Source of the DNA: Pseudomonas xionganensis
GTDB taxonomy: Bacteria; Pseudomonadota; Gammaproteobacteria; Pseudomonadales; Pseudomonadaceae
Direction of reading: 5' to 3'
NCBI RefSeq assembly: GCF_009763245.1
Contig: NZ_WKJZ01000001.1
Coordinates: 372,001 to 436,000, forward strand
Length of the DNA: 64,000 nt
Part shown: piece by piece, positions 11,563-62,379 of the stretch
Layout: the number at the start of each line of letters is the position of its first letter
Position numbering within the stretch: position 1 is the stretch's first letter
Position numbers and translations under genes: made by a program
The notes under the pieces: generated by a model
What the model was told of the DNA's origin: nothing
The model's database searches: none
Seen by the model: only the letters and a program-made list of their open reading frames with translations

Positions 11563-11997
11563 CTAGTCGAGAACAGGTGCCTTGATGGTGCCTAACGTGT
11601 CGCGCAATTCGCCGAGCAGGCCGGCGATCTGCGCCGCACTCATGGCAAAGGGGTCGAAGCGATCGCTGCCCGAGTACTTGAGGAACAGCTCGCGATTGGC
11701 CTGCTTGGCGCTGGCCCAGCCCATGCTCCAGTTACTGTAGAGGCGCTGGTCGATCTCGGCGTAATCAAGGATGGTCAGATCCTTGTGTCGGGTGTCTTCG
11801 GCCAGGCGGTTGTACAGGGCATTGACGGCGACGCGGGGGCCTTCCAGGGCCTGCAGAAAGCAGTCGGCGTTGCAGCAGAGAATCCCGGTCAGGCCCTGAG
11901 GCGGGTTGTTACGCTGGGAACTCTCGAGGATCGAACGAATCAGTTCGGCGGAGACCGAGTGACTGGCGCGGCTGGCATAGGTCAGGCGTACGAGCAT
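11563..11997 (-). CDS. Stand-alone BLUF blue-light sensor
   Basis: A 144-residue protein starting MLVRLTYASRA. This is a complete BLUF flavin-binding domain: the conserved Tyr in LTYAS, Asn in RNNPPQGLTGILCC, Gln in FLQALEG, and the Trp/Met region in YSNWSMGWA. A short C-terminal helical tail follows. There is no fused output domain, so signalling must pass to a partner. I chose the ATG at 11997 because AAAGG lies about 8 bp upstream and BLUF proteins begin at this point; an in-frame start 30 bp earlier would cut into the operator. The GGDEF/EAL gene follows on the same strand, and known BLUF partners include EAL proteins. Confidence 0.93.
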   Translation of the reverse strand: MLVRLTYASRASHSVSAELIRSILESSQRNNPPQGLTGILCCNADCFLQALEGPRVAVNALYNRLAEDTRHKDLTILDYAEIDQRLYSNWSMGWASAKQANRELFLKYSGSDRFDPFAMSAAQIAGLLGELRDTLGTIKAPVLD

Positions 11998-12013
11998 GGA
12001 AGCACCTTTGATT

Positions 12014-12048
12014 GTTACAAGATCCATTAAATGTATAGGATCTGTACA
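12014..12048 (-). promoter_or_regulatory. LitR/PplR-type operator upstream of the BLUF gene
   Basis: Read on the minus strand, TGTACA (12048-12043), TATACA (12037-12032) and TGTAAC (12019-12014) have exactly the spacing seen at 3044-3078. TATACA-N12-TGTA fits the recalled light-regulator consensus, with the last two bases of the second half differing. It ends 17 bp before the BLUF start codon, so it may overlap the promoter. Confidence 0.5.
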
Positions 12049-12163: not shown

Positions 12164-13138
12164 GTGCACGCCATGCTGCCCTTGCTCGACCAACTGGCCT
12201 TCCCGGCGATCCGCCGCGGCCAACTGGAAGCGCTGCAGATCAACCTGACCTACCGCTGCAACCAGCGCTGTCTGCATTGCCATGTCAATGCCGGGCCGAC
12301 CCGCACCGAGGCGATGACCGACGAGAGCCTGGCGCTGCTGCACCAGGTGATCGACGCCCACCCGGTGCATACCCTCGACCTCACCGGCGGCGCGCCGGAG
12401 ATGCACCCGCGCTTTCGCGAGATCGTCAGCCACGCACGGCGCGAGGGCCTGCGGGTGATCGATCGCTGCAACCTGACCATCCTCAGCGAGCCGGGTTATG
12501 AGGACCTGGCGCAGTTTCTTGCCGAGCAGGGCGTGGAAATCACCGCCTCCCTGCCCTGCTACTCGCGCGACAACGTCGACAAGCAGCGTGGCGACGGCGT
12601 ATTCGATGCCAGCATCAAGGGCCTGCAACAGCTCAATGCCCTGGGTTACGGCCAACCGGGCAGCGGCCTGATCCTCAACCTGGTGTACAACCCGCAAGGG
12701 CCTAGCCTGCCGCCGCCGCAAGCGGCGCTGGAGGCCGACTACAAACGCCACCTGGCCGAGGACTTCGGTATCGTCTTCAACCACCTGCTGTGCATCACCA
12801 ACCAGCCGATCGCGCGCTTTGGCAGCACCCTGGTCAGCAAGGGCCAGTTCAACGGCTATATGCAGCTGCTACGCGACAGCTACCGGCCGGAAAACCTCGA
12901 ACCGCTGATGTGCCGCAGCCTGGTCAGCGTCGACTGGCAGGGCTATCTGTACGACTGCGACTTCAACCAGATGCTCGACTTGCCACTGCAACTGCCCGAG
13001 GTGATCGGCCGCGACCGACCGCACCTGCGCGACCTGCTGAACGCCAGCCTTGCCGGCAACCCCATTGTCACCCGTGACCATTGCTATGCCTGCACCGCCG
13101 GCCAGGGCTCCAGCTGTGGCGGCGCGCTGAATGAGTAG
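12164..13138 (+). CDS. arsS: ArsS-type radical SAM protein (arsenosugar biosynthesis family)
   Basis: A 324-residue radical SAM enzyme. The 4Fe-4S/SAM motif is CNQRCLHC in INLTYRCNQRCLHCHVNAGP (C-x3-C-x2-C), followed by the SAM-contact LDLTGGAPEMHP. The C-terminal DUF3641 part has FNHLLCITNQPIARFGS, CRSLVSVDWQGYLYDCDFN and the cysteine-rich tail DHCYACTAGQGSSCGGAL. In ArsS this chemistry joins 5'-deoxyadenosyl to methylated arsenic; some homologues are selenoproteins, whereas this one uses Cys. I chose the GTG at 12164 because AGGAG lies 6 bp before it; the ATG at 12173 is the alternative. Its TAG stop lies in the first bases of a GTAGGGTGCGC repeat. No arsM is visible in the window. Confidence 0.88.
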   Translation: MHAMLPLLDQLAFPAIRRGQLEALQINLTYRCNQRCLHCHVNAGPTRTEAMTDESLALLHQVIDAHPVHTLDLTGGAPEMHPRFREIVSHARREGLRVIDRCNLTILSEPGYEDLAQFLAEQGVEITASLPCYSRDNVDKQRGDGVFDASIKGLQQLNALGYGQPGSGLILNLVYNPQGPSLPPPQAALEADYKRHLAEDFGIVFNHLLCITNQPIARFGSTLVSKGQFNGYMQLLRDSYRPENLEPLMCRSLVSVDWQGYLYDCDFNQMLDLPLQLPEVIGRDRPHLRDLLNASLAGNPIVTRDHCYACTAGQGSSCGGALNE

Positions 13139-13196
13139 GGTGCGCCATGCGCACCAATACACCGCAGTTTGCGCTGGTGCGCACAGCGCACCCTAC
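13135..13196. repeat. GTAGGGTGCGC-family hairpin
   Basis: GTAGGGTGCGC at the left and GCGCACCCTAC at the right are exact reverse complements, with inner GCGCACC/GGTGCGC pairs adding to the stem. The left end overlaps the arsS stop codon. A near-identical copy lies at 14638-14699. Confidence 0.85.
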
Positions 13197-13243
13197 GGCT
13201 GAATCACACCCAAGTGCCCTGAACATTAACTAAGGATCGATCC

Positions 13244-14623
13244 ATGCAACCCACCAGTCTCACCGGGCTGTTCTTCTGGGGCTTTCTCGTGGTCTACGGC
13301 GCCCTGATGCTGGCCCTGGCACCGCGCGCCGTGACCCTCGGCGGTTTCTTCAATGGCGAGGACAGCCGCGGCCGCAGCGCCAGCCCCTGGCTGATCACCT
13401 CCAGCATCTTTATCAGCTGGATCTTCGCCAAATCGGTGACCAACGCCGCCAATCTGGGGGCGACCTACGGCCTGGTCGGTGGCCTGGCCTATGCCATGTA
13501 CTGGCTGTCGATTCCGCTCACCGGCTTCGTCATCTACCGCCTGCGCCGGCGCTTTGCGGCCACCGGCCTGGTGAGCTTTCTCAGCAGCCATTACGGCCGG
13601 GGCGCGGCGCTGGCGTTTTCCGCCGCAATTCTGATTCGCCTGTTCAACGAGGTATGGAGCAACACCGCGGTGGTCGGCGGCTATTACGGCGACTCGGGCA
13701 GCGTCGAGTTTATCGCCGCCGCCCTGCTGTTTACCGCCGTGACCCTGGCCTACAGCCTGCGCGGCGGCCTGCGCAGCTCGATCCTCACCGACGCGGCGCA
13801 GGCGGCGATCTTCGTGATTGCCCTGGTCTGGGTGCTCGGCCTGGTGCTGCCGCAGCACTCACCCCGTGAGCTGGCCAGCACCAGCAATTGGGCGCTGAAT
13901 GCCGGCGTCGATCTGCTCCTGGTCGCCGGCCTGCAGGCCTTCAGCTATGGCTTCCATGACCCGGTGCTGACCGACCGCGGCTTTATCAGCGAGGAGAAGG
14001 CCATGCGCCGCTCCTTTCTGATCGCCGGGGTGCTGGGCTTTATCGCCATCCTGGCCTTTAGCCTGATCGGCGTGCATGCCCAGCTGGTGGGCGTCGCCGC
14101 CTCGGACAACGTGCCGGCGGCCCTGGCCAAGAGCCTGGGCATCGGCGCACTGCTGGTGATGACCGTGGTGATGGTTTCCGCTGCCGGCTCGACCCTGGAC
14201 TCGACCTTCTCCAGCCTGGCCAAGCTGGCCGGGCGCGAATTGCCGAAACTGGCCGGCCGCGACCTCGGGCAGAAGGCCATTGGCGTGGGCATGGCGGTGA
14301 TGGTGCTGTTCGCCCTGCTCGGCAACCTGCCGATGATCGCCGGCACCGATATCCTCAAGGCCACCACCATCAGCGGCACCATGGTGATCGGCCTGGCCCC
14401 GGTGTTTGTCCTGCACGGCCTGACCACGCCAACCCGGCTGGGCTTTCACCTGAGTTTCTGGACTGGCCTGGGCCTGGGCGTGGCCCTGACCCTGGGCTGG
14501 ATTCCGCAAAGCTGGGCCATTGGCGATGGCAAGTATGCCCTGCTGCTCGGCACCAACCTGTATGGCCTGGGGCTCTGCGTGCTCGGCTATCTGCTGCCCG
14601 GCTGGTTGCGGAGGACTGCCTGA
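13244..14623 (+). CDS. Sodium:solute symporter family transporter
   Basis: A 459-residue inner-membrane protein with about 12-13 hydrophobic segments. The first is TGLFFWGFLVVYGALMLALA. SSS-family features include SPWLITSSIFISWIFAKSVTNAANLG, the stretch ATYGLVGGLAYAMYW, and VMVSAAGSTLDSTFSSLAKLAGRE, which corresponds to the family's Na+-site region in a core helix. The substrate cannot be read from the sequence. AAGGATCGATCC precedes the ATG. It lies between arsS and the phosphoesterase-like gene in the same direction, flanked on both sides by the same hairpin repeat. Uptake or export of the arsS pathway's substrate or product is inferred. Confidence 0.85.
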   Translation: MQPTSLTGLFFWGFLVVYGALMLALAPRAVTLGGFFNGEDSRGRSASPWLITSSIFISWIFAKSVTNAANLGATYGLVGGLAYAMYWLSIPLTGFVIYRLRRRFAATGLVSFLSSHYGRGAALAFSAAILIRLFNEVWSNTAVVGGYYGDSGSVEFIAAALLFTAVTLAYSLRGGLRSSILTDAAQAAIFVIALVWVLGLVLPQHSPRELASTSNWALNAGVDLLLVAGLQAFSYGFHDPVLTDRGFISEEKAMRRSFLIAGVLGFIAILAFSLIGVHAQLVGVAASDNVPAALAKSLGIGALLVMTVVMVSAAGSTLDSTFSSLAKLAGRELPKLAGRDLGQKAIGVGMAVMVLFALLGNLPMIAGTDILKATTISGTMVIGLAPVFVLHGLTTPTRLGFHLSFWTGLGLGVALTLGWIPQSWAIGDGKYALLLGTNLYGLGLCVLGYLLPGWLRRTA

Positions 14624-14637
14624 TGCGACTTGGCCTC

Positions 14638-14699
14638 GTAGGGTGCGCTGTGCGCACCAGGCATCTGCCTGCGGAATTGGTGCGCACGGCGCACCCTAC
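14638..14699. repeat. GTAGGGTGCGC-family hairpin, second copy
   Basis: GTAGGGTGCGCTGTGCGCACC at the left folds on GGTGCGCACGGCGCACCCTAC at the right. It is nearly identical to the copy at 13135-13196, so the symporter gene is bracketed by two copies about 1.5 kb apart. Confidence 0.85.
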
Positions 14700-14726
14700 C
14701 TCTGTTTGGCTGGGGGCTGGAGCCTG

Positions 14727-15695
14727 ATGCGCGCCGGCCGCGATTGCCCGCTGGATTACCGCCTGGCCAAGGATGCCTTTAGCGGTAAGCCCGCGTTTGA
14801 GTGTGAAACCCTGTATGTGGTCGGCGGCCTCTATGGCAATCGCCAGGCCCTGGCCGCGCTGCAACGACGCCTGGCCGCCGAGCCCAATGCGCGGCTGGTA
14901 TTTAACGGCGACGCGCACTGGTTTGACCGCAACCCCGAGATTTTCCAGCAGATCGAACAGGGCCTCAGTGCCCATCTGGCCCTGCGCGGCAATGTCGAAA
15001 CCGAGCTGGGCCGTGCCGACGACAGCGGCGCCGGCTGCGGCTGCGCCTACCCGATGAGCGTGGATGAGGCGGTGGTCGAGCGCTCCAATGCCATCCAGCA
15101 GGAATTGAATAAAACCGTGCAGGGTTTGCCCGGTACGGCCGAACGCCTGGCGGCGCGACCGAGTACCGCGCAGGTCAGCGTGGCCGGGCAGCGCGTGGCG
15201 ATCAGCCATGGCGACGAGCAGTCCCTGGCTGGCTGGAGCTGTTCGCGGGAATCCCTCAGCGAGCCGACACGCCAGCAGCACCTGGATAACTGGTTTGCCG
15301 CACACAACGTCCAGGTTTTGGCCACCAGCCATACCTGCTCGGCGGTGGCCTTGAACCTTGAGCACGGCGCGCTGATCAATAACGGCGCGGCCGGGCTGCC
15401 CAACTTTGCCGGAGGCCGCTACGGCCTGCTTAGCCGCATCGCCACCACGCCACATCCAGCGGCGTTGTACCGCTGTGAGCGTAATGGCCTGTTTATCGAA
15501 GCCCTGCCGCTCAACTACCACCACGATGCCTTTCTCGCCGACTTCGACCGCCAGTGGCCCGCCCATAGCCCGGCGGCGTTGTCCTACCGTGCACGGGTGC
15601 TCGGCCAACTGAGCGATCGCCCCGAACACGCCCTGCTGGCTGGTTTCAGCCTGTGCCAAAGCCTGTGCGCCCTGGAGGCGCTGACTGATGAATAG
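14727..15695 (+). CDS. Metallophosphoesterase-fold protein with altered metal ligands
   Basis: A 322-residue protein whose block order matches calcineurin-like phosphoesterases: LYVVGGLYGNRQAL (family usually D-x-H-G-N), VFNGDAHWFD (GD retained), LRGNVETEL (family GNHD/E), VAISHGDEQ (HG retained), VQVLATSHTCSAV (family GHTH) and LINNGAAGLPNF (family NPGS). Several metal-binding Asp/His positions are therefore replaced. I chose the ATG at 14727 with GGAG 4 bp upstream, because earlier in-frame sequence runs through the hairpin repeat and the symporter gene. It overlaps the next gene by 8 bp, so translational coupling is likely. It may be a non-hydrolytic or redirected enzyme; its activity is unknown. 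Confidence 0.75.
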   Translation: MRAGRDCPLDYRLAKDAFSGKPAFECETLYVVGGLYGNRQALAALQRRLAAEPNARLVFNGDAHWFDRNPEIFQQIEQGLSAHLALRGNVETELGRADDSGAGCGCAYPMSVDEAVVERSNAIQQELNKTVQGLPGTAERLAARPSTAQVSVAGQRVAISHGDEQSLAGWSCSRESLSEPTRQQHLDNWFAAHNVQVLATSHTCSAVALNLEHGALINNGAAGLPNFAGGRYGLLSRIATTPHPAALYRCERNGLFIEALPLNYHHDAFLADFDRQWPAHSPAALSYRARVLGQLSDRPEHALLAGFSLCQSLCALEALTDE

Positions 15696-17829
15696 CCGCA
15701 AACTGGCCCTGATGGGCCTGATTCTCGCCCTGCTCGGCAGCTTCTTTGTCTTCGACCTCGGCCAGTACCTCAATCTGGAAACACTCAAGGCGCAGCAAAC
15801 GGCGCTGAATGCCCAGGTGGCCGCGCAGCCCTGGCAATCGGCGGGGCTGTTCTTTCTCGCCTATGTGGCGGTTACCGCCCTGTCGCTGCCCGGCGCGGCC
15901 CTGATGACCCTGCTGGCCGGCGCGCTATTTGGCCTGTTGCAGGGTTTCATCCTGGTGTCCTTCGCCTCCACCCTGGGCGCGACCCTGGCCATGCTCAGCA
16001 GCCGCTTTCTGCTGCGCGACTGGGTGCAAGCGCGCTTTGGTCAGCGCCTGGCTGGCATCGACAAGGGCGTGGAGCGCGAAGGGGCCTTCTACCTGTTCGC
16101 CCTGCGCCTGGTGCCGGTGTTCCCGTTCTTTCTGATCAACCTGGCCATGGGCCTGACCCGCCTGCCGGCACGCACCTACTGGTGGGTCAGCCAGCTGGGC
16201 ATGCTGCCGGGCACCCTGGTGTATGTGAACGCCGGGCGTGAGCTGGGCCAGCTGGAGTCCCTGGCCGGTATCCTCTCGCCGGGGCTGCTCGGTGCCTTCG
16301 TGCTGCTGGGGGTGTTTCCGCTGATCGCGCGCAAGCTGCTGGGCTTGATCCAGGCGCGGCGGGTGTATGCCGGCTGGCACAAACCCAGGACATTCGACCG
16401 TAACCTGCTGGTGATCGGCGCCGGTGCCGGCGGCCTGGTCAGCGCCTATATCGCGGCGGCGGTAAAGGCCAAGGTCAGCCTGATCGAAAAGCACCAGATG
16501 GGCGGCGACTGCCTGAATACCGGCTGCGTACCATCCAAGGCGCTGCTGCGTTCGGCCAAGCTGGCCCATGAGCTGAAAAAGGCACCGGCCCTGGGCTTTA
16601 GTGGCGTGCAGGGTACGGTGGATTTTCCTGCGGTGATGCAGCGCATCCAGCGGGTGATCGCCGACATCGAACCCCATGATTCGGTGGAGCGCTACACCGG
16701 CCTGGGCGTCGAGGTGATCCAGGGCGAAGCCAAGATCCTCTCGCCCTGGAGCGTGGAAGTGAATGGCCAGACCCTGACCAGCCGCAACCTGATCATCGCC
16801 GCCGGGGCGCGGCCGCTGGTGCCGAAGATTCCCGGCCTGGAGCAGGTGCAGGCGTACACCTCGGACAGCATCTGGAGCCTACGCCAGCAGCCGCGCTGGC
16901 TGCTGGTGCTCGGTGGCGGGCCGATTGGCTGCGAGCTGGCCCAGGCCTTCCAGCGCCTCGGCAGCCAGGTGATCCAGGTGGAACTGGCCGAGCGCCTGCT
17001 GCCCCGCGAAGACGCCGATGCCAGCGAACTGGTGCTCAGCAGCCTGCGCGCCGACGGCGTCGATGTGCGCCTGCAACACCGCGCCGAACGCTTCGAAGTG
17101 GTGGACGGCGAACAACGCATGATCGCCCGCCGTCTGGATACCGGCGAAGAGGTGTGCATCGCCTTCGACGGCCTGCTGCTGGCCCTGGGCCGGGTAGCCA
17201 ATGTCAGCGGCTATGGCGCCGAGGAACTGGGCCTGGCGCTGCGGCCCAACGGCACCCTGGAAGTCGACGAATACCTGGCCACGCGCTTCCCCAATATCTA
17301 CGCGGTGGGCGATGTCACCGGGCCCTACCAGTTCACCCATGTGGCCGCGCACCAGGCCTGGTATGCGGCGGTCAATGCCCTGTTCAGCGGCTTCAAGCGC
17401 TTCAAGGTGGATTACCGGGTGATTCCCGCCTGCACCTTTACCGACCCGGAGGTGGCCCGCGTGGGGCTGAATGAAAGCGAGGCGCAGGCCCAGGGCATCG
17501 CCTATGAAGTGACCCGCTACGGCATCGACGATCTGGACCGGGCGATTGCCGACGAAGCCGCCCATGGCTTTGTCAAAGTGCTCACTGTGCCGGGCAAGGA
17601 CCAGATTCTCGGCGTGAGCATCGTCGGCGAACACGCCGGCGAGTTGCTCGCCGAATATGTGCTGGCGATGAAACATAACCTCGGCCTGAACAAGATTCTC
17701 GGCACCATCCACAGCTACCCGACCATGGCCGAGGCCAACAAGTATGCGGCCGGTGAGTGGAAGCGGGCCCATGCCCCCCAAGGCCTGCTGCGCCTGGTTG
17801 AGCGCTTTCACACCTGGCGCCGCAGCTGA
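15688..17829 (+). CDS. TVP38/TMEM64 membrane domain fused to FAD disulfide reductase (MerA-like)
   Basis: A 713-residue fusion. Residues 1-230 form a DedA/TVP38 (SNARE-associated) membrane domain with GALFGLLQGFILVSFASTLGATLA and FALRLVPVFPFFLINLAMGL. Residues 235-713 are a pyridine nucleotide-disulfide oxidoreductase: FAD site LLVIGAGAGGLVSAYIAAA, redox pair CLNTGC (C275, C280), NAD(P) site LVLGGGPIGCELAQAF, and AVGDVTGPYQFTHVAA. The C-terminal motif reads IHSYPTMAEANKYA, so the usual HPT catalytic His is Tyr. The N-terminal metal domain and C-terminal Cys pair of mercuric reductase are missing, so Hg(II) is unlikely to be the substrate. It overlaps both neighbours in an operon. Confidence 0.9.
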   Translation: MNSRKLALMGLILALLGSFFVFDLGQYLNLETLKAQQTALNAQVAAQPWQSAGLFFLAYVAVTALSLPGAALMTLLAGALFGLLQGFILVSFASTLGATLAMLSSRFLLRDWVQARFGQRLAGIDKGVEREGAFYLFALRLVPVFPFFLINLAMGLTRLPARTYWWVSQLGMLPGTLVYVNAGRELGQLESLAGILSPGLLGAFVLLGVFPLIARKLLGLIQARRVYAGWHKPRTFDRNLLVIGAGAGGLVSAYIAAAVKAKVSLIEKHQMGGDCLNTGCVPSKALLRSAKLAHELKKAPALGFSGVQGTVDFPAVMQRIQRVIADIEPHDSVERYTGLGVEVIQGEAKILSPWSVEVNGQTLTSRNLIIAAGARPLVPKIPGLEQVQAYTSDSIWSLRQQPRWLLVLGGGPIGCELAQAFQRLGSQVIQVELAERLLPREDADASELVLSSLRADGVDVRLQHRAERFEVVDGEQRMIARRLDTGEEVCIAFDGLLLALGRVANVSGYGAEELGLALRPNGTLEVDEYLATRFPNIYAVGDVTGPYQFTHVAAHQAWYAAVNALFSGFKRFKVDYRVIPACTFTDPEVARVGLNESEAQAQGIAYEVTRYGIDDLDRAIADEAAHGFVKVLTVPGKDQILGVSIVGEHAGELLAEYVLAMKHNLGLNKILGTIHSYPTMAEANKYAAGEWKRAHAPQGLLRLVERFHTWRRS

Positions 17830-18542
17830 TGCGCAGGTTATTGCTCGCGCTGCTGGTACTGGCGCCACTGGCTCAGGCCGATAACCCGTTAACGCCCTGG
17901 ACAGCCGGCCCGCCCACTGGCGAATGGTCGGCACCCTGGAAGCTGGCGGATATCCCCAAGCTCAAGCCATCCGTCCGCACGCTGGTCGAGCAGGACGGTC
18001 GGCCGGTACTGCGTATCCAGGCCGATGCCGCCGCTGGCGGTCTGCTGCATCCCCTGGATCTGGATGGTGCAGAAGCTTGGCAACTAAGCTGGCAGTGGCG
18101 CACCGAGCAGAAACTGGACAAGGCGCGCTTTGCCACCCGCGAGGGCGATGACTACGCGGCAAGGGTCTATGTGCTGCTGGATTACCCGCTGGATTCACTC
18201 TCGTTTGTCACCCGGCAGAAGCTGCGCCTGGCGCGCACCTTCTTCGACCCCGATCTGCCGGCGGCGACCCTGAGCTACGTCTGGGACAACCGCGCCGCCC
18301 CCGGCACCCATGCGCGCAGCGCCTATACCGAGACGGTGGAGATGCGCGTGCTGCGCGGCCCGGAGGCGCCACTGGGGCAATGGCTAAGCGAGCGCCGCGA
18401 TCTGCGCGCGGACGCCATCGCCGCCTTTGGCAGCGCCCCACGCCGAATCCTTGGCGTGGTATTCGCCGCAGACAGCGACAATACCGGGGAGTCCGTAGAA
18501 AGCTATTTCGCCGCGCCGCAATTGCAGCGCGCGGCACCCTAA
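17829..18542 (+). CDS. DUF3047 exported protein
   Basis: A 237-residue protein with signal peptide MRRLLLALLVLAPLAQAD and a mature DUF3047 domain: PSVRTLVEQDGRPVLRIQAD, LSWQWRTEQKLDKA, DYAARVYVLLDYPLD, LSYVWDN and VFAADSDNTGESVESYFAAP. The family is a predicted beta-sandwich of unknown function. Its start codon shares one base with the stop of the upstream fusion gene (ATGA-type junction), so the two are co-translated. Its 3' end overlaps by 4 bp the end of the convergent methyltransferase-like gene. Periplasmic location and the operon suggest that it binds a product or partner of the membrane reductase; this is inference. Confidence 0.85.
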   Translation: MRRLLLALLVLAPLAQADNPLTPWTAGPPTGEWSAPWKLADIPKLKPSVRTLVEQDGRPVLRIQADAAAGGLLHPLDLDGAEAWQLSWQWRTEQKLDKARFATREGDDYAARVYVLLDYPLDSLSFVTRQKLRLARTFFDPDLPAATLSYVWDNRAAPGTHARSAYTETVEMRVLRGPEAPLGQWLSERRDLRADAIAAFGSAPRRILGVVFAADSDNTGESVESYFAAPQLQRAAP

Positions 18543-19003
18543 ATCCAGCGCCGCACCTGGGCGCAGTAGCGGGCAAAGTCCTCACCGAACAGCCGGTCCA
18601 GGGCTCGTTCCTCCGGGCCGATCTGGAAGCGGTTGAGATACAGCACAAACGCCACCACCCCGAGCCCTGCCGCAGGCAAGGCGAGAAACAGCGCCCAGGC
18701 CAGCAGCATCATGGCGAAACCCAGGTACATGGGGTTGCGTGTGTACCGGTAGATCCCGGAATTGACCAGGGCCGACGCGCTTTCGGGTTTTAACGGATTG
18801 ACCGTGGTGCGGGCCCGGCGAAACGACAGCACCCCGGCCAGACACACGACAAGGCCCAGCAGCAGTACCGGCAGGGCCAGCGCCAGACGCCAGGCCAGGG
18901 GCAGTTGCAGGCCGCTGGGCCATTGCCAGGCGCCGAGCCACATCAACAGACCGCACAGGGCGGCAACCAGCGGTGGGGGAATCCGATTGTGCAGCCAGTT
19001 CAT
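18539..19003 (-). CDS. Isoprenylcysteine carboxyl methyltransferase-like membrane protein
   Basis: A 154-residue protein with four hydrophobic segments (PPPLVAALCGLLMWLGAW, LALALPVLLLGLVVCLAGVL, GFAMMLLAWALFLAL, LGVVAFVLYLNRFQI) and the family's SAM-binding core LVNSGIYRYTRNPMYLGF followed by EERALDRLFGEDFARYCAQVRRWI. These mark the ICMT/PEMT-type membrane methyltransferases. GGAG lies 7 bp before the ATG. Bacterial members methylate unknown small molecules or lipids. It is convergent with the DUF3047 gene and divergent from the FAD gene; a methylation step in the same pathway is possible but unproven. Confidence 0.85.
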   Translation of the reverse strand: MNWLHNRIPPPLVAALCGLLMWLGAWQWPSGLQLPLAWRLALALPVLLLGLVVCLAGVLSFRRARTTVNPLKPESASALVNSGIYRYTRNPMYLGFAMMLLAWALFLALPAAGLGVVAFVLYLNRFQIGPEERALDRLFGEDFARYCAQVRRWI

Positions 19004-19217
19004 TACGGCACTCCGTCAGGGTGTGGGCCACTGATCATCGCCGCAATCGGCCAGGACTGCATCATGCAATGCCGATCCTGGCGCGCTCGGGCATGGTCAA
19101 GCCGGGCTATTTTTGCGATCTTTGCAGGGCGGCCGGCGCGACAGGCTCCTGCGCCGTACCGCCTGGGTTATGCACCCGCGGATCACTCGCCTAATCGATA
19201 ACCCAGGACCTGCCCAA

Positions 19218-20291
19218 GTGATTTCCGACTACGACCTGCTGTTGCTCGGCGCCGGCCACGCCCACCTGGGGGTACTGCGCCGCTGGGCCCTGGTCGAGCG
19301 CCCGCCGGGGCGCATCGCCCTGCTCAGCCCCGGGCCGCAGGCCTGGTATTCCGGCATGCTGCCCGGGCTGCTGGCCGGGCGCCACGCAGCAGCGGACTGC
19401 CAGGTCGAGCTACTGGCGCTGTGCCGCGCGGCCAAGGTCGAGCTGATCATCAGCCCGGTGCAGAGCCTGTCTGCCGCCCAGCAGCAGGTGCAACTGGCCG
19501 ATGGCCGCAGCCTCAAGGCGCGCTGGCTGTCGCTGAATGTCGGCGCGCAGATCGCCACACCACCGCAACAGGGCGACGCCATGCAGCTGCTGGCGGTCAA
19601 ACCCTTTGCCGACTTCCTTGCAGGCTGGCAACAGTGGCAGGCCGTCCCCCAGCCCCTGGCCATTCTCGGCGGCGGCGCGGCGGGGGTCGAACTGGCCCTC
19701 GCCCTGGCCGGCCAGGTGCCGCAGCTGGCGCTGTTCTGCGCCGGCCACCTGCTCGATGGCTTGTCCTCCGGCCTGCGCCTGCGCGCACTCGGGCACCTGC
19801 GCCAGCGCGGGGTCTGGGTGCGTGAGGACTGCCCGATCAGCCGCATCGAAAACGACTGCCTGCTCAGCGGCGACGAACCGGTCTGGCGCGGCCGGCGCCT
19901 GTTGCTGGCCAGCGGCGCCAAGGCCTTTGCCTGGCCGGCGCACAGTGGCCTGGGCTGCGACGAGCAGGGTTTCGTGCTGGTTGCGCCGACGTTGCAGAGC
20001 TACACCCATCCGACGATTTTCGCCGCAGGCGACTGCGCCAGCCTGGCCGGCGCGCGCAAGAGCGGGGTGTATGCGGTGCGCCAGGGCCCGGTGCTGGCCG
20101 CCAACCTGGGCGCGGCCCTGCGCGGCCTGCCCCTCAAACGCTACCGGCCACAGCGCCACAGCCTGGCCCTGCTGGCCACCGGTGATGGCGGCGCACTGCT
20201 GGACTGGTATGGCCATAGCGCCGGCGGCCAGCTCTATGGACGCTGGAAGGATTGGCTGGACAAGGGCTTTATCCGCCGCCACAGCCTGTAG
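19218..20291 (+). CDS. FAD oxidoreductase resembling the SelD N-terminal extension
   Basis: A 357-residue protein from GTG 19218: FAD site YDLLLLGAGHAHLGVLRRWAL, then GPQAWYSGMLPGLLAGRHA, an NAD(P) site PLAILGGGAAGVELALALAG, and the second FAD contact TIFAAGDCASLAG. It belongs to the NDH-2-like family known as the N-terminal domain fused to selenophosphate synthetase in some organisms (GGGHAHL, YSGMLPG). Here it stands alone, and no SelD domain follows. The GTG is preferred because AGGA sits 9 bp upstream and family proteins begin right before this motif; ATG 19170 is the alternative. No redox-active Cys pair is visible. A selenium or thiol electron-transfer role is inferred only. Confidence 0.82.
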   Translation: MISDYDLLLLGAGHAHLGVLRRWALVERPPGRIALLSPGPQAWYSGMLPGLLAGRHAAADCQVELLALCRAAKVELIISPVQSLSAAQQQVQLADGRSLKARWLSLNVGAQIATPPQQGDAMQLLAVKPFADFLAGWQQWQAVPQPLAILGGGAAGVELALALAGQVPQLALFCAGHLLDGLSSGLRLRALGHLRQRGVWVREDCPISRIENDCLLSGDEPVWRGRRLLLASGAKAFAWPAHSGLGCDEQGFVLVAPTLQSYTHPTIFAAGDCASLAGARKSGVYAVRQGPVLAANLGAALRGLPLKRYRPQRHSLALLATGDGGALLDWYGHSAGGQLYGRWKDWLDKGFIRRHSL

Positions 20292-22234: not shown

Positions 22235-22855
22235 TCACCTGGCCTTGCGCGCCACGAGAAAGAGCTGCGCCTTGGCCGGCTGCCATTCGTAGTCAATGTC
22301 AAAGCCGGCCCGGGTCAGCATGGCCAGCAGCGCCTGCCTGTCGAAACGGCTCACCGCAGGAGCCAGCCCCAGGGCTTGCATGGCTGGAATCAGCAGCCGC
22401 CAATAACGCGCCAGTTCCGCGATCAGGGCTGTGCTGCTGACAAAGATGCCGCCGGGCTTGAGCAGGTGAGCGACACGCACAACAGCTGCCTCGGTGTCTT
22501 CCACTAGGTGCAGCACATTGAGACCCAGCACCGCGTCGAAGCTGGCCGCCGTCAATGCCGGGCTATCCAGGGTGCCCTGCTCGAAACGGACATTGCTGAT
22601 GCCGGCCTGGCGCGCCTTGTCCCGGGCGATCGCCACCATCTGGGCGGACAGATCGGTCGCAAGAATCTGTCTGACATAGGCGGCGTGCACCAGGGCCGTA
22701 CTCCCGGTACCGCAGCCAAATTCGAGCACGGACCAGTCGGGGCGCAAGTAGCCCTGGGTGATCGCCAGCTTCTTCTGATAGCTCTGCTCGTCCCTGATCG
22801 GGCTTCTGGCGTAGCGCGCTGCCGCCTTATCCCAGAAGGCTTGTGAATGCTTCAT
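22235..22855 (-). CDS. Class I SAM-dependent methyltransferase
   Basis: A 206-residue soluble methyltransferase. SAM-binding motif I is VLEFGCGTGSTAL, motif II LATDLSAQMVAIARDKA, and motif III AVLGLNVLHLVED followed by HLLKPGGIFVSS. The N-terminus FWDKAAARYARSPIRDEQSY resembles small-molecule methyltransferases of the UbiE/COQ5 type. I chose ATG 22855 because AAGGAG lies 6 bp upstream; a start 30 bp earlier lacks this. The only cysteine near the catalytic core is in the SAM motif, so it is not an arsenite methyltransferase, which needs several conserved cysteines. The substrate is unknown. The gene stands alone. Confidence 0.85.
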   Translation of the reverse strand: MKHSQAFWDKAAARYARSPIRDEQSYQKKLAITQGYLRPDWSVLEFGCGTGSTALVHAAYVRQILATDLSAQMVAIARDKARQAGISNVRFEQGTLDSPALTAASFDAVLGLNVLHLVEDTEAAVVRVAHLLKPGGIFVSSTALIAELARYWRLLIPAMQALGLAPAVSRFDRQALLAMLTRAGFDIDYEWQPAKAQLFLVARKAR

Positions 22856-23033
22856 GTGCTTCTCCTTGTCGATAGCCCGCAGCACGTGCAGGCCACCCGG
22901 GCGCAGCCTGCAAACGGCCCGGCAAGCCTAGTCGAGCCCAGGCCATACGCCAGCTAATGTTTAGTTAGAACAAAACCAAGCATGATAAAAATCAGATTTA
23001 AAGCACGCTTGAGCCTGTGCGAGCCTGCTGGTC

Positions 23034-46765: not shown

Positions 46766-46804
46766 GCACATAAAAAACCGGCTTTAAGCCGGTTTTTTAT
46801 GTGC
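46766..46804. terminator. Bidirectional terminator between plsC and gyrB
   Basis: GCACATAAAAAACCGGC-TTTAA-GCCGGTTTTTTATGTGC is a perfect 17-bp inverted repeat with A/T runs on both sides. It ends both the plsC transcript (plus) and the gyrB transcript (minus). Confidence 0.93.
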
Positions 46805-46812
46805 GCATTGGA

Positions 46813-50338
<3,526 letters not shown>

Positions 50339-50345
50339 GCAACTA

Positions 50346-51449
50346 TTACAGACGCATCGGCATAACGACGTAAGAGGAATCGTCGTTGTCGGCTTCCTGC
50401 ACCAGGGCACTGCTGTTGGCATCAGAGAGAATCAGACGCACCTGTTCGGTGGTCATCACGCTCAGCACATCGAGCAGGTAGCTGACGTTGAAACCGATTT
50501 CCAGAGAGCTGCCATTGTAGTCCACCAGGATTTCTTCTTCGGCTTCTTCCTGCTCCGGGTTGTTGGCCTGAATTTTCAGCAGACCAGATTCCAGTTGCAG
50601 ACGGATGCCACGGTACTTCTCGTTGGAGAGAATCGCCGTGCGGCTAAAGGCTTCACGCAGGCCCTGACGATCAGCCACCACCAGCTTGTCGCCGCCACGG
50701 GGCAACACGCGCTCGTAGTCGGGGAACTTGCCGTCGACCAGCTTGGAGGTGAAGGTAAACTCACCAGTGGTGGCGCGAATGTGGTGCTGACCGAGCACGA
50801 TGCTGACGTTTCCATCCTGCTCAGTGAGCAGACGTGCCAGCTCCAGGATACCTTTTCGCGGCACGATAACCTGATGCTTGCCGTCCTGTTCGATGGCCGC
50901 TTCCATGGAACACATGGCCAGACGGTGACCATCGGTGGCTACCGCGCGCAACAGACCGCTTTGCACTTCCAGCAGCATGCCGTTGAGGTAGTAGCGCACA
51001 TCCTGCTGGGCCATGGCGAAGCTGGTGCGCTCGATCAGGCGACGTACCTTGCTCTGCACCAGGTTGAAGGTCAAAGAGCCGGGACCTTCTTCGACCGTGG
51101 GGAAATCGTTGGCCGGCAGGGTGGAAAGGGTAAAGCGGCTACGCCCGGCCTTGACCAGCAGCTTCTGCTCGTCGATGCGGATATCGATCAGGGCATCACT
51201 GGGCAGGCTTTTGCAGATGTCCATCAGCTTGCGCGCCGGTACGGTGATCTCGCCTGGCTCGGCCGGCTCCTCCAGGGTGACACGGCCCACCAGCTCGACC
51301 TCAAGGTCGGTACCGGTCAGGGACAATTGCTGGCCTTCGACCACCAGCAGCACATTGGAGAGCACTGGCAAGGTCTGGCGTCGTTCCACGACACCAGCGA
51401 CCAGTTGCAGGGGTTTCAACAGGGCTTCGCGTTGAATGGTGAAATGCAT
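50346..51449 (-). CDS. dnaN: DNA polymerase III beta sliding clamp
   Basis: A 367-residue processivity clamp made of three similar domains. Recognisable segments are [56 protein letters not shown] followed by VATDGHRLA, and the C-terminal [26 protein letters not shown] lies 7 bp before the ATG. It follows dnaA after 31 bp and precedes recF by 7 bp in the same transcript. Confidence 0.99.
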
Positions 51450-51480
51450 GGTCTAGTCCCTTGCCTAGTGGAGTCGCGGA

Positions 51481-52965
51481 TTAAGTAGTCAGCGTGCGCA
51501 GCAAATTCTTGTAGTCCTCGCGGATGTCCGCGTCGGATTCCCTAAGTTCAGCAATCTTACGGCAAGCATGCAATACCGTCGTGTGATCGCGCCCACCAAA
51601 GGCATCGCCAATTTCCGGCAGACTGTGATTGGTCAGCTCCTTGGACAACGCCATGGCCACCTGACGCGGTCGCGCCACCGAACGAGAACGGCGCTTGGAA
51701 AGCAGGTCGGAAATCTTGATCTTGTAGTACTCGGCCGTGGTGCGCTGGATATTGTCGATGCTGACCAGTTTGTCCTGCAGGGCGAGCAGATCCTTGAGCG
51801 ATTCGCGAATCAGTTCGATGGTGATATCACGGCCCATGAAGTGCGAGTGGGCAATCACCCGTTTCAGCGCGCCTTCCAGCTCGCGCACGTTGGAGCGAAT
51901 GCGCTGTGCAATAAAGAAGGCGGCGTCGTGGGGCAGATCGACTTTGGCCTGGTCGGCCTTCTTCATCAGGATCGCCACCCGGGTTTCCAGCTCCGGCGGC
52001 TCCACTGCCACGGTCAGGCCCCAGCCGAAGCGTGATTTCAGGCGCTCTTCCAGGCCTTCGATCTCCTTCGGGTAGCGGTCACTGGTGAGAATCACCTGCT
52101 GACCGCCTTCGAGCAGGGCGTTGAAGGTGTGGAAAAACTCTTCCTGAGAACGCTCTTTCTTGGCGAAGAACTGGATGTCGTCGATCAGCAGCGCATCCAC
52201 CGAACGGTAGAAGCGCTTGAATTCGTTGATCGCATTGAGCTGCAACGCCTTGACCATGTCGGCGACAAAGCGCTCGGAATGCAGGTAGACCACCTTGGCG
52301 TTGGGGTTCTTGGCCAGCAGATGGTTGCCCACCGCATGCATCAGGTGAGTCTTGCCCAGGCCCACACCCCCATAGAGGAACAGCGGGTTGTAACCGTGCT
52401 TGGGGTTATCCGCCACCTGCCAAGCTGCGGCGCGGGCCAACTGGTTGGACTTGCCCTCGACGAAGTTGTCGAAGGTAAAGGTCCGATTCAGATAACTGGT
52501 GTGCTTGAGCGCGCCTTCGACCTGCACGGTCCGTTCTGTGCGTGCCGGCTGCTGGGAGGGACTGCTGGCCGGCGACACATGCACGTGCGCGGTGTTGGCG
52601 TTAAAGGCGTCCTGAGTGTTCGACTGCCGGGACGTCTGTGCCAGCGGCTCGTTGAGCGGCGCCGCGCTGGCAGCTGCTGGAGCTGCCGTGCTGGGCGCCA
52701 CAGAACGTGCTGCAGCGCCACGCTTGCTACCTATCAATAAGGAAAGGGCGGGGACCAGGCCATTGGTACGTTCGCCGAGCAACTCCAGCAGACGGGTCAG
52801 GTATTTCTCGTTGACCCAGTCGAGCACAAAGCGGTTTGGCGCGTAGACACGCAGCTCATCGCCTTCCGCTTCGACCTGCAACGGTCGGATCCAGGTGTTG
52901 AATTGCTGGGCAGGCAGTTCGTCGCGCAGAAGTTCCACGCACTGCTGCCAAAGTTCCACAGACAC
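51481..52965 (-). CDS. dnaA: Chromosomal replication initiator DnaA
   Basis: A 494-residue initiator. Domain I is [25 protein letters not shown]; domain II is an Ala/Pro/Ser-rich linker (about 90-160). The AAA+ domain III holds [22 protein letters not shown] (Walker A) and [14 protein letters not shown] (Walker B). Domain IV has the DnaA-box-binding helix [15 protein letters not shown]. The start is GTG 52965. TACAAT on the minus strand (53015-53010) is a likely -10, and a perfect DnaA box at 53032-53040 sits just upstream of it, which would allow self-repression. Confidence 0.99.
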
Positions 52966-53489
52966 AGGCGTCCCCTAATGGAAAGGCGGTGAGGCAAAAA
53001 CAAGCCGCCATTGTAGTCCCGGGCAGACAAGTTATCCACATGAAAACGCCGATGCAGCCAAGGAAAATCAATGCCTTATTGACTCACGGGGTAATCCTGT
53101 ACGGACTCATAAAACCTGTGGATAAACGTTCTTGAGCCCTGCATATAAGCCTGTGGGCAGACCCGTTGAAAACCTGCCTGTGGGTAAATCAGCCTTTCAT
53201 ACCCAGCTTGTACGCCCTGATCACACAGTTGCCCCAAAGCTTTTCGACAGGCTTCAGGTTCCGGAAAGCGCCCATCAGCAAAGGGCTGCAGGCACTTATG
53301 CACAGCTCATGTGCCGACTAATAGCTTTAAACGCTACTAAACATCTTTAAAGATTTTCTTCACTATATTCTTTTATTCAGGAAAAGCGCTGGTTGGAAAT
53401 TGACCTGACCCGCTGGTTTCTCTAGAATTGCCGGTCTCTTAAAAACGGGGGCCATTCCGGCCCGTAGTCGACCACCCAGGTACCGCACC
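52966..53489. other. Replication origin region oriC (dnaA-rpmH)
   Basis: This 524-bp gene-free region has perfect DnaA boxes at 53032-53040 (plus) and 53117-53125 (minus), and variant boxes TGTGGGTAA at 53179-53187 and TTATGCACA at 53296-53304. An AT-rich stretch at about 53315-53400 (TTTAAACGCTACTAAACATC, then ATTTTCTTCACTATATTC) is a candidate unwinding element. The position between dnaA and rpmH is where Pseudomonas origins have been mapped. The rpmH promoter lies at the right end. Confidence 0.9.
53400..53428 (+). promoter_or_regulatory. Sigma-70 promoter of rpmH-rnpA
   Basis: TTGACC at 53400-53405 and TAGAAT at 53423-53428 are separated by exactly 17 bp, close to consensus. It lies 62 bp upstream of the rpmH start and follows the AT-rich part of the origin. 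Confidence 0.85.
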
Positions 53490-53624
53490 ATGAAACGTAC
53501 TTTCCAACCCAGCACTATCAAACGCGCCCGCACCCACGGTTTCCGTGCCCGTATGGCCACCAAGAACGGCCGTGCTGTCCTGTCGCGTCGCCGCGCCAAG
53601 GGCCGTAAGCGTCTGACCGTCTAA
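53490..53624 (+). CDS. rpmH: 50S ribosomal protein L34
   Basis: A 44-residue, very basic protein starting [20 protein letters not shown] and ending [10 protein letters not shown], the normal L34 sequence. The ATG at 53490 follows a CAGG site (53477-53480). It is the first gene to the right of the origin and heads rpmH-rnpA-yidD-yidC. It is too short to stand out without knowing the family, but the identity is unmistakable. Confidence 0.99.
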
Positions 53625-53635
53625 ATCCCGTTCTT

Positions 53636-54040
53636 GTGGTGAGTCGAGACTTCAGTCGGGCAAAGCGTCTGCTAACCCCCCGACAGTTCAAGGCAGTCTT
53701 CGACTCCCCTAGCGGTAAAGCTCCGGGCAAAAATGTCCTGCTGCTCGCGCGCAACAACGAGCTCGATCACCCCCGTTTGGGCCTGGTGATTGGCAAGAAG
53801 AGCGTCAAGCTCGCTGTTGAGCGCAATCGCCTGAAACGCCAGATCCGTGAATCCTTTCGCCTCAACCAGGACAAACTGGTGGGCTGGGATATCGTGGTGG
53901 TAGCGCGCAAGGGCTTGGGCGATCTGGAAAACACCGAACTGGCTGAACAGTTTGGCAAACTCTGGAAACGCCTGGCACGCAGCAAGGTCACGCCCGCAGT
54001 TACTGCCCCAGCCGGGATAAGCGACTGTCCCGATGCGTAA
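53636..54040 (+). CDS. rnpA: Ribonuclease P protein component
   Basis: A 134-residue basic protein that binds RNase P RNA and helps process tRNA 5' ends. The conserved RNR motif is in [18 protein letters not shown], and [17 protein letters not shown] and [12 protein letters not shown] are typical. The start is GTG-GTG (53636 or 53639). It follows rpmH by 11 bp and overlaps yidD by 8 bp. Confidence 0.97.
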
Positions 54041-54278
54041 ACTGGCCCTGCTTCCCATCCAGTTCTACCGCTACGCCATCAGCCCTTTGATGGCCAGTCA
54101 CTGTCGCTTCTATCCAAGCTGTTCCTGCTACGCGCAAGAGGCCATTGAGCAATATGGTGTCCTGCGCGGTGGCTGGCTGGCTGCTCGTCGGCTTGGTCGC
54201 TGTCATCCGTGGAATCCCGGCGGCTACGATCCGGTTCCACCCGTGCAATCCTCCCGTTCCTCTTCGATGGCCGAATAA
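54033..54278 (+). CDS. yidD: Membrane protein insertion efficiency factor
   Basis: An 81-residue protein of the YidD family: [39 protein letters not shown], then [21 protein letters not shown]. The conserved cysteines and amphipathic N-terminus are present. It assists YidC-dependent membrane insertion. It overlaps rnpA by 8 bp and ends 2 bp before yidC, so all are co-expressed. Confidence 0.96.
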
Positions 54279-54280
54279 TC

Positions 54281-56020: not shown

Positions 56021-56042
56021 GTTGCAATGACTTCTAAGCTGT

Positions 56043-56073
56043 AACAAACGCCCCTTTTCAGGGGCGTTTTGTT
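56043..56073 (+). terminator. Terminator after yidC
   Basis: AACAAACGCCCC-TTTTCA-GGGGCGTTTTGTT is a stem of about 12 bp ending in T residues, placed between yidC and mnmE. Confidence 0.88.
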
Positions 56074-56095
56074 ATGTCGTTTGCAGGAGAGCCCT

Positions 56096-57463
56096 ATGCC
56101 CAGCGTCACCGAAACCATCGCCGCCGTCGCCACCGCCCAGGGCCGTGGTGGGGTGGGCATCGTGCGGGTCTCTGGGCCTCTGGTCGGCGCACTGGCCAGG
56201 GCCATTTGCCAGCGAGAGCTAAAACCCCGCTATGCCCATTACGGCCCCTTCTTCGCCGAGGCCGGGCAGGTGCTGGATGAGGGCCTGGCCCTGTACTTTC
56301 CGGGACCGAACTCCTTTACCGGCGAAGACGTGCTGGAGTTGCAGGGCCATGGTGGGCCGGTGGTGCTGGATCTGCTGCTGCGTCGTTGCCTGCAACTCGG
56401 TGCACGCCTGGCGCGCCCCGGGGAGTTCAGCGAGCGCGCCTTTCTTAACGACAAGCTCGACCTGGCCCAGGCCGAGGCGATTGCCGATCTGATCGAAGCC
56501 AGCTCCGAACAGGCCGCGCGCAATGCCCTGCGCTCGCTGCAGGGCGAATTCTCCCGCCGCGTACATGGCCTGACCGAACGCCTGATCAGTCTGCGTATCT
56601 ATGTGGAAGCGGCCATCGACTTCCCCGAGGAAGAAATCGATTTTCTTGCCGATGGCCATGTGCTGAATCTGCTCGATGGCGTACGTAGCGACCTGGTGGG
56701 CGTGCTACGTGAGGCCGGGCAAGGCGCCCTGCTGCGCGACGGCATGACCGTGGTGATCGCCGGCCGGCCGAATGCCGGCAAGTCCAGCCTGCTTAATGCC
56801 CTGGCCGGGCGTGAAGCGGCCATCGTCACCGAGATCGCCGGTACCACCCGCGATGTGCTGCGTGAACATATCCATATCGACGGTATGCCCCTGCATGTAG
56901 TCGATACCGCCGGCCTGCGCGATACCGAGGATCAGGTGGAGCGCATCGGCGTGGAACGTGCACTAAAGGCCATTGCCGAAGCCGACCGCATCCTGCTGGT
57001 GGTGGATGCCACCGCCCCCGAAGCGGCCGATCCCTTTGCCCTGTGGCCGGAGTTTCTCGACCAGCGTCCCGACCCGGCCAAGGTCACCCTGATCCGCAAC
57101 AAGGCCGACCTCTCAGGAGAAAGCGTCGGACTGGAGAGCTGCGCTGATGGCCATATCACCATCAGCTTGTCGGCCAAATCCACCGAGGGGCTGGATCTGC
57201 TCAGGGAACATCTAAAGGCTTGCATGGGCTACGAACAGACAGCGGAAAGCAGTTTTAGCGCCCGTCGTCGCCATCTGGAAGCGCTGCGTCAGGCGGCCAG
57301 CCACCTTGAACATGGTCACGCCCAACTGACCCTGGCCGGGGCCGGCGAACTGCTGGCCGAAGACCTGCGCATGGCGCAACAGGCACTGGGTGAGATCACC
57401 GGCGCGTTCAGTTCCGATGACCTGCTGGGGCGGATCTTCTCCAGTTTCTGCATCGGTAAATGA
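56096..57463 (+). CDS. mnmE: tRNA U34 modification GTPase MnmE
   Basis: A 455-residue GTPase that, with MnmG, adds the (carboxymethyl)aminomethyl group to U34 of certain tRNAs. The N-terminal folate-binding domain shows [21 protein letters not shown]; the helical domain encloses the G domain with [18 protein letters not shown] (G1), [10 protein letters not shown] (G2), [12 protein letters not shown] (G3) and IRNKADL (G4); the C-terminus is FCIGK with the catalytic-domain Cys. AGGAGAG precedes ATG 56096. The partner mnmG lies downstream across a DnaA-box-rich gap. Confidence 0.98.
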
Positions 57464-60559: not shown

Positions 60560-60571
60560 GGGGAACGCAAC

Positions 60572-61360: not shown

Positions 61361-61370
61361 GGAAATTCCC

Positions 61371-62243: not shown

Positions 62244-62254
62244 AACAATTCCAT

Positions 62255-62282
62255 CTGTAGTAGGGGGGAACTCCGACTACAG
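62255..62282 (+). terminator. Hairpin after parB
   Basis: CTGTAGT-AGGGGGGAACTCCG-ACTACAG forms a 7-bp outer stem. There is no T run, so termination is only possible. It lies between parB and the atp promoter. Confidence 0.5.
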
Positions 62283-62287
62283 GACGG

Positions 62288-62316: not shown

Positions 62317-62379
62317 CCCCGCGCAATTTTGTGAGCTTCAGGCTCGTCATTCGCGGCTTGAATCAAGTGTAAGGTTGAC

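Follow-up and report, generated by a model that had tools for sequence, protein, structure and literature searches.

A stretch of 64,000 nucleotides (hereafter the window; contig positions 372001-436000) in the 3.96-Mb genome of Pseudomonas xionganensis carries five plus-strand genes in series at 12164-18542, which encode the radical SAM enzyme ArsS, a homologue of sodium/solute symporters (SSS), an altered metallophosphoesterase (MPE), a fusion of a VTT/TVP38 membrane domain with a FAD disulphide reductase, and a DUF3047 protein. Comparison with other genomes confirmed that this cluster is real and conserved beyond chance. What is new here is the conserved addition of the SSS and MPE genes to the ArsS set, the bias of this addition to genomes without a detected ArsM (arsenic methyltransferase), and a family of cysteine-bearing MPE proteins. 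The gene content, the linkage, a second locus with two glycosyltransferase genes, the altered MPE motifs and a MerA-type tyrosine in the fusion are direct observations. The operon may encode the central part of an arsenosugar-type pathway that depends on ArsS. This variant would have no arsenic methyltransferase of its own, carry a symporter instead and be fed by an imported methylated precursor; we regard this reading as a serious possibility, somewhat short of probable. The genes of the series are:

12164-13138, + strand: ArsS, radical SAM with DUF3641 C-terminal domain (TIGR04167, PF04055, PF12345)
13244-14623, + strand: SSS-like sodium/solute symporter homologue (TIGR00813 below cut-off; an orthologue over the PF00474 cut-off)
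14727-15695, + strand: altered MPE with invariant CGC/HTC cysteines (alignments, AlphaFold2 model, fold comparison)
15688-17829, + strand: VTT/TVP38 membrane domain-MerA-like FAD disulphide reductase fusion (PF09335, PF07992, PF02852)
17829-18542, + strand: DUF3047 protein (PF11249)

The sequence and profile searches bear out the genes, order, strands and overlaps described in a first-pass annotation of this DNA. The MPE and fusion genes overlap by 8 bp (15688-15695) and the fusion and DUF3047 genes by 1 bp (17829), as seen in the sequence itself. The GTG start of ArsS agrees with the MHATLPLL N-terminus of its homologues, which also point to ATG at 14727 as the likely start of the MPE gene.

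Conservation of the gene set

Genome contigs were scanned with the SSS protein and the best 80 of 282 relatives were kept; all counts out of 80 refer to these. Their loci contain ArsS in 70 cases, MPE in 73, the TVP domain in 62, the FAD half in 57, DUF3047 in 35, GT2 in 29 and DUF2064 in 28. The co-occurrence in other genomes on which the first-pass annotation had staked its cluster is therefore found for ArsS, SSS, MPE, fusion and DUF3047, less so for a SelD-N-like gene (32/80), and is missing for an ICMT-like gene (one 28% match in 80 loci). ArsS shares the locus with SSS, over a span of up to ~21 kb, in 70/80, and lies directly upstream at less than 400 bp in 66. Judged by the ends of tblastn matches, ArsS and SSS are separated by a median of 30 bp (68 loci, 66 of them below 400 bp), SSS and MPE by 18 bp (72 loci) and MPE and TVP by 6 bp (54 loci). 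The order ArsS-SSS-MPE-fusion recurs across many genera. Pseudomonadales contribute 40 of the 80 loci, Rhodocyclales 9, Burkholderiales 5 and Nitrosomonadales 4, and others come from Bacillota, Campylobacterota (Campylobacter), Spirochaetota (Brachyspira) and Actinomycetota. Among the 10 SSS loci without ArsS, nine belong to genomes that carry ArsS elsewhere, over the TIGR04167 cut-off; ArsS is thus present in 79/80 of the genomes with these closest SSS relatives.

The view from ArsS was taken in a sample of 369 genomes of the host's class, of which 183 contain ArsS (E ≤ 1e-30), and in 87 ArsS loci, each longer than 5 kb, a non-random set made of 78 from the better-scoring class matches and nine relatives. 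Within 5 kb of ArsS, these 87 loci hold DUF2064 (60), TIGR04283-like GT2 (55), TVP (31), an ArsM relative (30) and FAD reductase (25). SSS and MPE adjoin ArsS in only one of them, that of the same-genus genome G014. From this count, SSS and MPE at first seemed to form a pair of their own, unconnected with ArsS, a reading that was dropped because the full operon occurs in many genera and ArsS is encoded elsewhere in nine of the ten remaining genomes. MPE is rare in the class sample (10/369, the window's own included), and an SSS relative lies in the fetched stretch of six of the nine other MPE-positive genomes. MPE goes with the reductase (9/10 vs 117/359, p 0.0004), and the reductase fusion is enriched with ArsS (97/183 vs 29/186, odds ratio 6.1).

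ArsS and the symporter-like protein

The window ArsS scores 455 bits against a TIGR04167 cut-off of 300. Its radical SAM motif CX3CX2C is present as CNQRCLHC, the cysteine positions of which are conserved at over 95% in 159 rows, as is the C-terminal CTAGxGSSC. Of the named rows on the ArsS tree, those of Pseudomonas peli and P. anguilliseptica stand nearest. ArsS is the enzyme that attaches an adenosyl group to arsenic when oxo-arsenosugars are made (Cheng 2021, cited in the available part of PMC12159101), and in Synechocystis ArsS and ArsM act in the first arsenosugar steps, according to the portion of PMC8552651 at hand. In four Gemella genomes (L233-L236) a single TGA codon interrupts the ArsS reading frame, the pattern that a selenoprotein form would show.

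The SSS-like protein of the window has no Pfam match. Its orthologue in L201 (68% identity) scores 37 bits with PF00474, over the cut-off of 22.8, and that of L151 has no Pfam match. An STLDSTF stretch is conserved across 88 rows, and a sequence search of the PDB returned one chance-like match only. In a literature search judged by title and made mostly outside subscription journals, no paper on an SSS or MPE partner of ArsS was found.

A cysteine-bearing metallophosphoesterase family

The MPE proteins were compared in an alignment of 82 rows, from open reading frames above set identity and coverage limits, and in alignment A1, with 47 rows drawn from the window and 60 MPE rows after near-duplicates had been dropped. 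The two-metal site of calcineurin-like phosphoesterases is built from the motifs DxH, GD, GN, H and GHxH. In the 82-row alignment GD, GN, H and H of this site are retained, the DxH ligands are absent from all 82 sequences, and in all 82 the last histidine is a cysteine; GGLYGN stands where phosphoesterases have DxHGN. The motifs GGLYGN, NGDxxWF, GNVExE, CGCxYP, HGD, HTC and NNG are conserved at 90-100%, and cysteines C133, C135 and C233 (numbering of the alignment query) occur in every sequence. D62, N89, H161 and H202 (A1 numbering) are kept. From the register of the motifs, we read one metal site as probably kept and the other as lost, and a cysteine may provide a new ligand.

No Pfam or NCBIfam model matches the window protein, and the Metallophos models give two distant members scores under their cut-offs; the family, a branch of the metallophosphoesterase fold marked by its cysteines, has no name in present family libraries. 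The AlphaFold2 model (mean pLDDT 94.8) has a calcineurin-like fold, with 1nnw as its best match (Z 20.5, root-mean-square deviation 3.1, 230 aligned) and SapH 3qfn (Z 20.4) among its relatives, and a profile search against PDB sequences gave three weak matches (E 0.05-0.34), two of them VPS29. The fold is thus common to MPE and the SapH, PH1004 and Metallophos_2 phosphoesterases at Z ~20, whereas MPE differs from them by GGLYGN in place of the DxH motif, SHTC in place of GHTH and an extra invariant CGC.

These relations bear on another role for the pair, in which SSS and MPE would move and process a phosphate-, nucleotide- or sugar-containing co-substrate of the arsenosugar pathway (e.g., a sugar acceptor) and not an arsenical, with MPE as a hydrolase of the SapH/Ap4A-hydrolase type. 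It is in line with this that SapH, known as an asymmetric Ap4A hydrolase/phosphodiesterase, and PH1004-type proteins are the closest relatives of the MPE model in fold and that, by our reading, the four kept residues match one of the two metal sites. However, the loss of DxH and the exchange of the last histidine throughout the family make ordinary two-metal hydrolysis doubtful, and such a role leaves the deficit of ArsM described below without a reason. We consider it unlikely.

The membrane reductase fusion and the DUF3047 protein

The fusion combines VTT (PF09335, 82.9 bits, cut-off 33.9) with PF07992 and PF02852. The closest PDB relative of its FAD half is mercuric reductase (5x1y, E 9.8e-76), and the likeness to MerA includes the CxxxxC motif and Tyr677, which aligns with the tyrosine of MerA and replaces the active-site histidine of dihydrolipoyl dehydrogenase; CxxxxC, Tyr677 and a glutamate are found in 72/72 sequences. 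MerA has, in addition, a C-terminal cysteine pair. The fusion differs from MerA in its VTT membrane domain, in lacking this pair (70 of 72 sequences have no cysteine beyond residue 690) and in scoring below the MerA cut-off of TIGR02053 (381 vs 454 bits). The same domain make-up is known from COG0398 (DedA/VTT) proteins, among which the fusion to PF07992 and PF02852 is the commonest; a linkage to ArsS is absent from the part of that account available to us (PMC10127716).

The first-pass annotation had suggested a route for making, reducing, methylating and moving a metabolite, an interpretation that is partly supported. Its reducing and transporting steps are plausible, and mercuric reductase is the PDB entry nearest to the FAD half. 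No methylation step is supported at the locus because the ICMT-like gene lies outside the conserved set. With tyrosine at the MerA position, the reductase half would also suit a detoxification of environmental methylated arsenicals or oxidants, in which reductase and ArsS make a harmless conjugate, no dedicated import takes place and the SSS protein serves Na+ or solute balance. In the operons read, no export or secondary-metabolite gene was seen apart from the glycosyltransferase pair of some lineages, which fits such a function. The missing C-terminal cysteine pair does not, and ArsS in 79 of the 80 closest-SSS genomes is hard to square with general solute balance; detoxification appears quite improbable to us.

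The DUF3047 protein matches PF11249 with 189 bits (cut-off 27), was aligned in 19 rows drawn from the window and 21 DUF3047 rows (alignment A2), and has a hydrophobic, signal-peptide-like N-terminus by eye. Its model is a beta-sandwich (pLDDT 91.6). A fold search returned a ciliary inner-junction protein, a C5-epimerase and carbohydrate-binding modules, mostly at TM 0.35-0.5 by query, and as these are several loose beta-sandwich matches, we assign no function to the protein.

A second locus and other candidate arsenosugar-pathway genes

On another contig of the host (G000:C2) lies a second locus, with matches to TIGR04283 (272 bits, cut-off 182) and TIGR04282 (192 bits, cut-off 134), which NCBIfam names arsenosugar biosynthesis glycosyltransferases. 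Its neighbours were read by eye as flgA, flgM, flgN and a YcgR-like gene, and DNA comparison and tblastn found the same arrangement in G014. In L035-L038, ArsS itself is placed at such a flagellar spot (names by eye) together with both glycosyltransferases. In L113 and L114 the pair adjoins apparent flagellar flgA/flgM/flgN genes. Three genomes of the same genus that lack ArsS showed no TIGR04283 match over cut-off. In Halopseudomonas, Stutzerimonas and several Betaproteobacteria, proteins related to TIGR04283 and TIGR04282 are encoded within the same operon.

MTA phosphorylase is encoded in the host genome away from the cluster (304 bits, cut-off 275), and its gene adjoins ArsS in L034. In Brachyspira (L199, 13283-15637), S-methyl-5-thioribose-1-phosphate isomerase (MtnA) and S-methyl-5-thioribose kinase (MtnK), both over NCBIfam cut-offs, directly follow ArsS. 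These two arrangements support an adenosine-type product of ArsS. A TIGR04169 peroxidase-like member was found in L208.

The arsenosugar set of NCBIfam consists of ArsS (TIGR04167), ArsM (NF038099/NF008823), TIGR04282, TIGR04283 and TIGR04169. The host resembles it in having ArsS, TIGR04282 and TIGR04283 over cut-off, with the glycosyltransferases away from the cluster, and some related operons unite ArsS, glycosyltransferases and the SSS-MPE-fusion genes. The host differs in that no ArsM was detected and in that the SSS-like protein, the cysteine-bearing MPE, the fusion and DUF3047 are outside the named set. The arsenosugar route, which the first-pass annotation called incomplete, is indeed without a found ArsM, but it is less incomplete than assumed because TIGR04282, TIGR04283 and MTA phosphorylase are encoded elsewhere in the genome. 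The arsQML arsinothricin cluster is another system that joins a radical SAM enzyme acting on arsenic with a dedicated transporter; as far as the available part of PMC8552651 tells, arsQ is a GntP-type putative exporter, ArsL a 3-amino-3-carboxypropyl transferase, and ArsM is present. A literature search that left most subscription journals outside its coverage found no paper combining any two of ArsS, TVP38 and DUF3047, and we found no account of the ArsS product in most of the 183/369 class genomes with ArsS.

Distribution of ArsM

The absence of arsM stated in the first-pass annotation holds genome-wide in the NF008823 search, where the best match at E ≤ 0.001 reaches 61 bits against a cut-off of 263 and lies in an ORF that is UbiE-like by eye. 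Eight methyltransferase regions of the host, with ORFs read in one, gave no match at 1e-8 to six ArsM queries (tblastn), and a class I methyltransferase in the window (22235-22885) was rejected as ArsM (54 bits vs 263). The genome surveys used NF008823 at E ≤ 1e-35, and only the host genome and G014 were searched to E 0.001; up to six candidates per genome were scored in the class survey and all candidates in the surveys of SSS genomes.

In the class, ArsM goes with ArsS (94/183 vs 23/186 ArsS-negative genomes, odds ratio 7.5). Among genomes with the SSS-type ArsS operon it was detected in 9/70 (6/50 and 3/20), significantly less than in the 94/183 (p 1.1e-8); two matches of the 50-genome survey contain an in-frame TGA. 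At the level of loci, an ArsM relative is found within 5 kb in 30/86 ArsS loci without SSS vs 0/70 with SSS (Fisher p 2e-9), and the fetched SSS loci have one only in L169 and L190, ~9 kb away. The 30 linked relatives tie ArsS to arsenic in loci without SSS. The tblastn search with the L040 protein that found them gives seven an identity of at least 45% and the remaining 23 one of 30-38%. Six of these 23 were scanned. NF040538 gives five of them 338-359 bits, below its cut-off of 500, and NF008823 gives the same five 182-199 bits in two stretches, of which the best is partial; the sixth exceeds the cut-off of NF008823. The ArsM-like clade directly after ArsS (L115 10054-11175, L118, L126, L072, L130) is closest to NF040538, a model named for arsinothricin, and in our view deserves a model of its own. 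The 1e-35 survey missed 20 of the 23 genomes with a divergent relative, and once the split-match clade is added, ArsM relatives occur in at least 114/183 ArsS class genomes. This addition strengthens the link of ArsS with arsenic elsewhere and, to a similar degree, makes it less certain that SSS genomes are without ArsM.

An ArsS-type pathway might serve another soft element or a thiol, with SSS importing a sulphur or selenium metabolite, ArsS adenosylating it, and rhodanese, C_GCAxxG_C_C and MTA-salvage enzymes processing it, arsenic being incidental. Up to 69/183 ArsS class genomes are without a detected ArsM (89 minus the 20 with a split-type relative beside ArsS). In some anaerobes and Campylobacter, the surroundings of SSS-MPE include a rhodanese (L194 by family search; L198, L199 and L218 by eye) or a C_GCAxxG_C_C protein (L218 by family search; L192 by eye). 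The TGA codons in the Gemella ArsS genes and MtnA with MtnK after ArsS in Brachyspira point in the same direction. Against this, ArsM is enriched in genomes with ArsS and stands beside it in 30/86 loci without SSS, and the ArsS biochemistry in the available parts of the cited sources concerns arsenic alone. We place a non-arsenic pathway on the unlikely side.

A proposed route and its weighing

As ArsS is reported to adenosylate arsenic, import, reduction, adenosylation, adenine removal and glycosyl transfer are proposed for the arsenosugar-type pathway. The SSS-like protein would import a methylated arsenical such as dimethylarsinate, or a methyl compound of another soft element, with Na+. 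Anchored in the membrane through VTT, the MerA-like reductase would then reduce the imported compound or a thiol carrier, and ArsS would put a 5'-deoxyadenosyl group on the reduced atom. An enzyme of the MTA-phosphorylase type, encoded elsewhere in the genome, would take off adenine, and the TIGR04282/TIGR04283 proteins of the second locus would activate and transfer the resulting 5-deoxy-riboside. Finally, the cysteine-bearing MPE-like protein might process or hold an intermediate in the cytosol, and DUF3047 might work beyond the inner membrane, where the glycosylated product could be its ligand.

A further-reaching version regards SSS-MPE as a scavenging branch, in which SSS would bring in dimethylarsinate or some related methylated metalloid together with Na+ and MPE would be a new cysteine-ligated metalloenzyme for an arsenic intermediate. 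Through it, bacteria that lack ArsM, Pseudomonas and anaerobes of the Gemella or Peptostreptococcus type among them, would make arsenosugars from the methylarsenicals of others; we think this unlikely. If it were true, methylated arsenic would be cross-fed between species. In any case the operon, which brings ArsS together with a probable transporter and two proteins not yet characterised, is a defined gene set for study.

Several points weigh against the imported-arsenical pathway. Arsenic as the element handled in this host is our inference, as is the substrate of SSS (e.g., dimethylarsinate), since SSS substrates cannot be read from sequence; the window protein, moreover, is below the SSS family cut-off (TIGR00813, 30 bits vs 184). 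Two of the nine ArsM matches in SSS-type genomes are full ArsM over cut-off, and 9/70 is a lower bound because the 1e-35 search misses the clade with a split match. The ArsS tree (155 rows, duplicate loci and those without known ArsM state left out) has only 4-5 changes of the SSS label. Among ~4 independent pairs, ArsM is opposite to SSS in 2.4 (2.8 with corrected labels) and goes the same way in 0.1, a comparison in which significance is unreachable. With so few changes and a powerless pairs test, the deficit of ArsM may reflect ancestry, and its complementarity with SSS is a lead and not proof. In the class sample the association of MPE with ArsS is not significant (7/183 vs 3/186, p 0.22). 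There are also genomes in which the partners are parted: L227 is an SSS genome with neither ArsS nor a linked MPE, a stretch of ~8 kb in G258 contains SSS (59%), MPE, the fusion and a relative of DUF3047, and G111 has SSS (62%) and MPE with the fusion on another contig; ArsS was found in neither G258 nor G111.

Neighbouring genes and sequence features

Two genes beyond DUF3047 and two hairpins inside the operon complete the features of the region:

13136-13195: REP-like palindromic hairpin, copy 1, ArsS-SSS gap (inverted pair TAGGGTGCGCNNTGCGCACC at 13136 + and 13176 -)
14639-14698: REP-like hairpin, copy 2, SSS-MPE gap (repeat scan of the window)
18539-19003, - strand: PEMT/ICMT-like methyltransferase, a neighbour judged outside the system (PF04191 51 bits, PF04140 30 bits)
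19113-20291, + strand: SelD-N-like FAD oxidoreductase (TIGR03169-like), start uncertain

The PEMT/ICMT-like gene, which has a 66% match in G014, was rejected as a methylation step because it is not conserved with the cluster. The handling of selenium, also raised in the first-pass annotation, finds no direct support in the host: the SelD-N-like FAD protein is a stand-alone gene with no SelD fusion and scores 295 bits, under the TIGR03169 cut-off of 310, and a full selD (442 bits) is at a distant place in the genome. A selenium route through this gene was set aside as the principal explanation on the same grounds.

The sequence TAGGGTGCGCNNTGCGCACC, which occurs as an inverted pair in the REP-like hairpin, has four matches with up to two mismatches in the 64 kb, all at the ArsS operon (0.01 expected). 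The SSS gene is flanked by both hairpin copies, with no other in the window, and exact copies are also present in L150, L158, L161, L164, L166 and L173, by position near the SSS gene. A promoter scan found no sigma-70-like site, and the same scan gave seven terminator-like sites vs 5.0 expected. A BLUF blue-light sensor gene (11563-12027) is divergent from ArsS, with a GGDEF-EAL-like gene (by eye) beyond it; a BLUF relative is found in 15/80 SSS loci, all of them rows with SSS identity of at least 91%. At ~46800-64000 the window contains the origin region, where gyrB, recF, dnaN, dnaA, yidC, trmE, gidA, parA, parB and an ATP synthase gene were recognised by eye.

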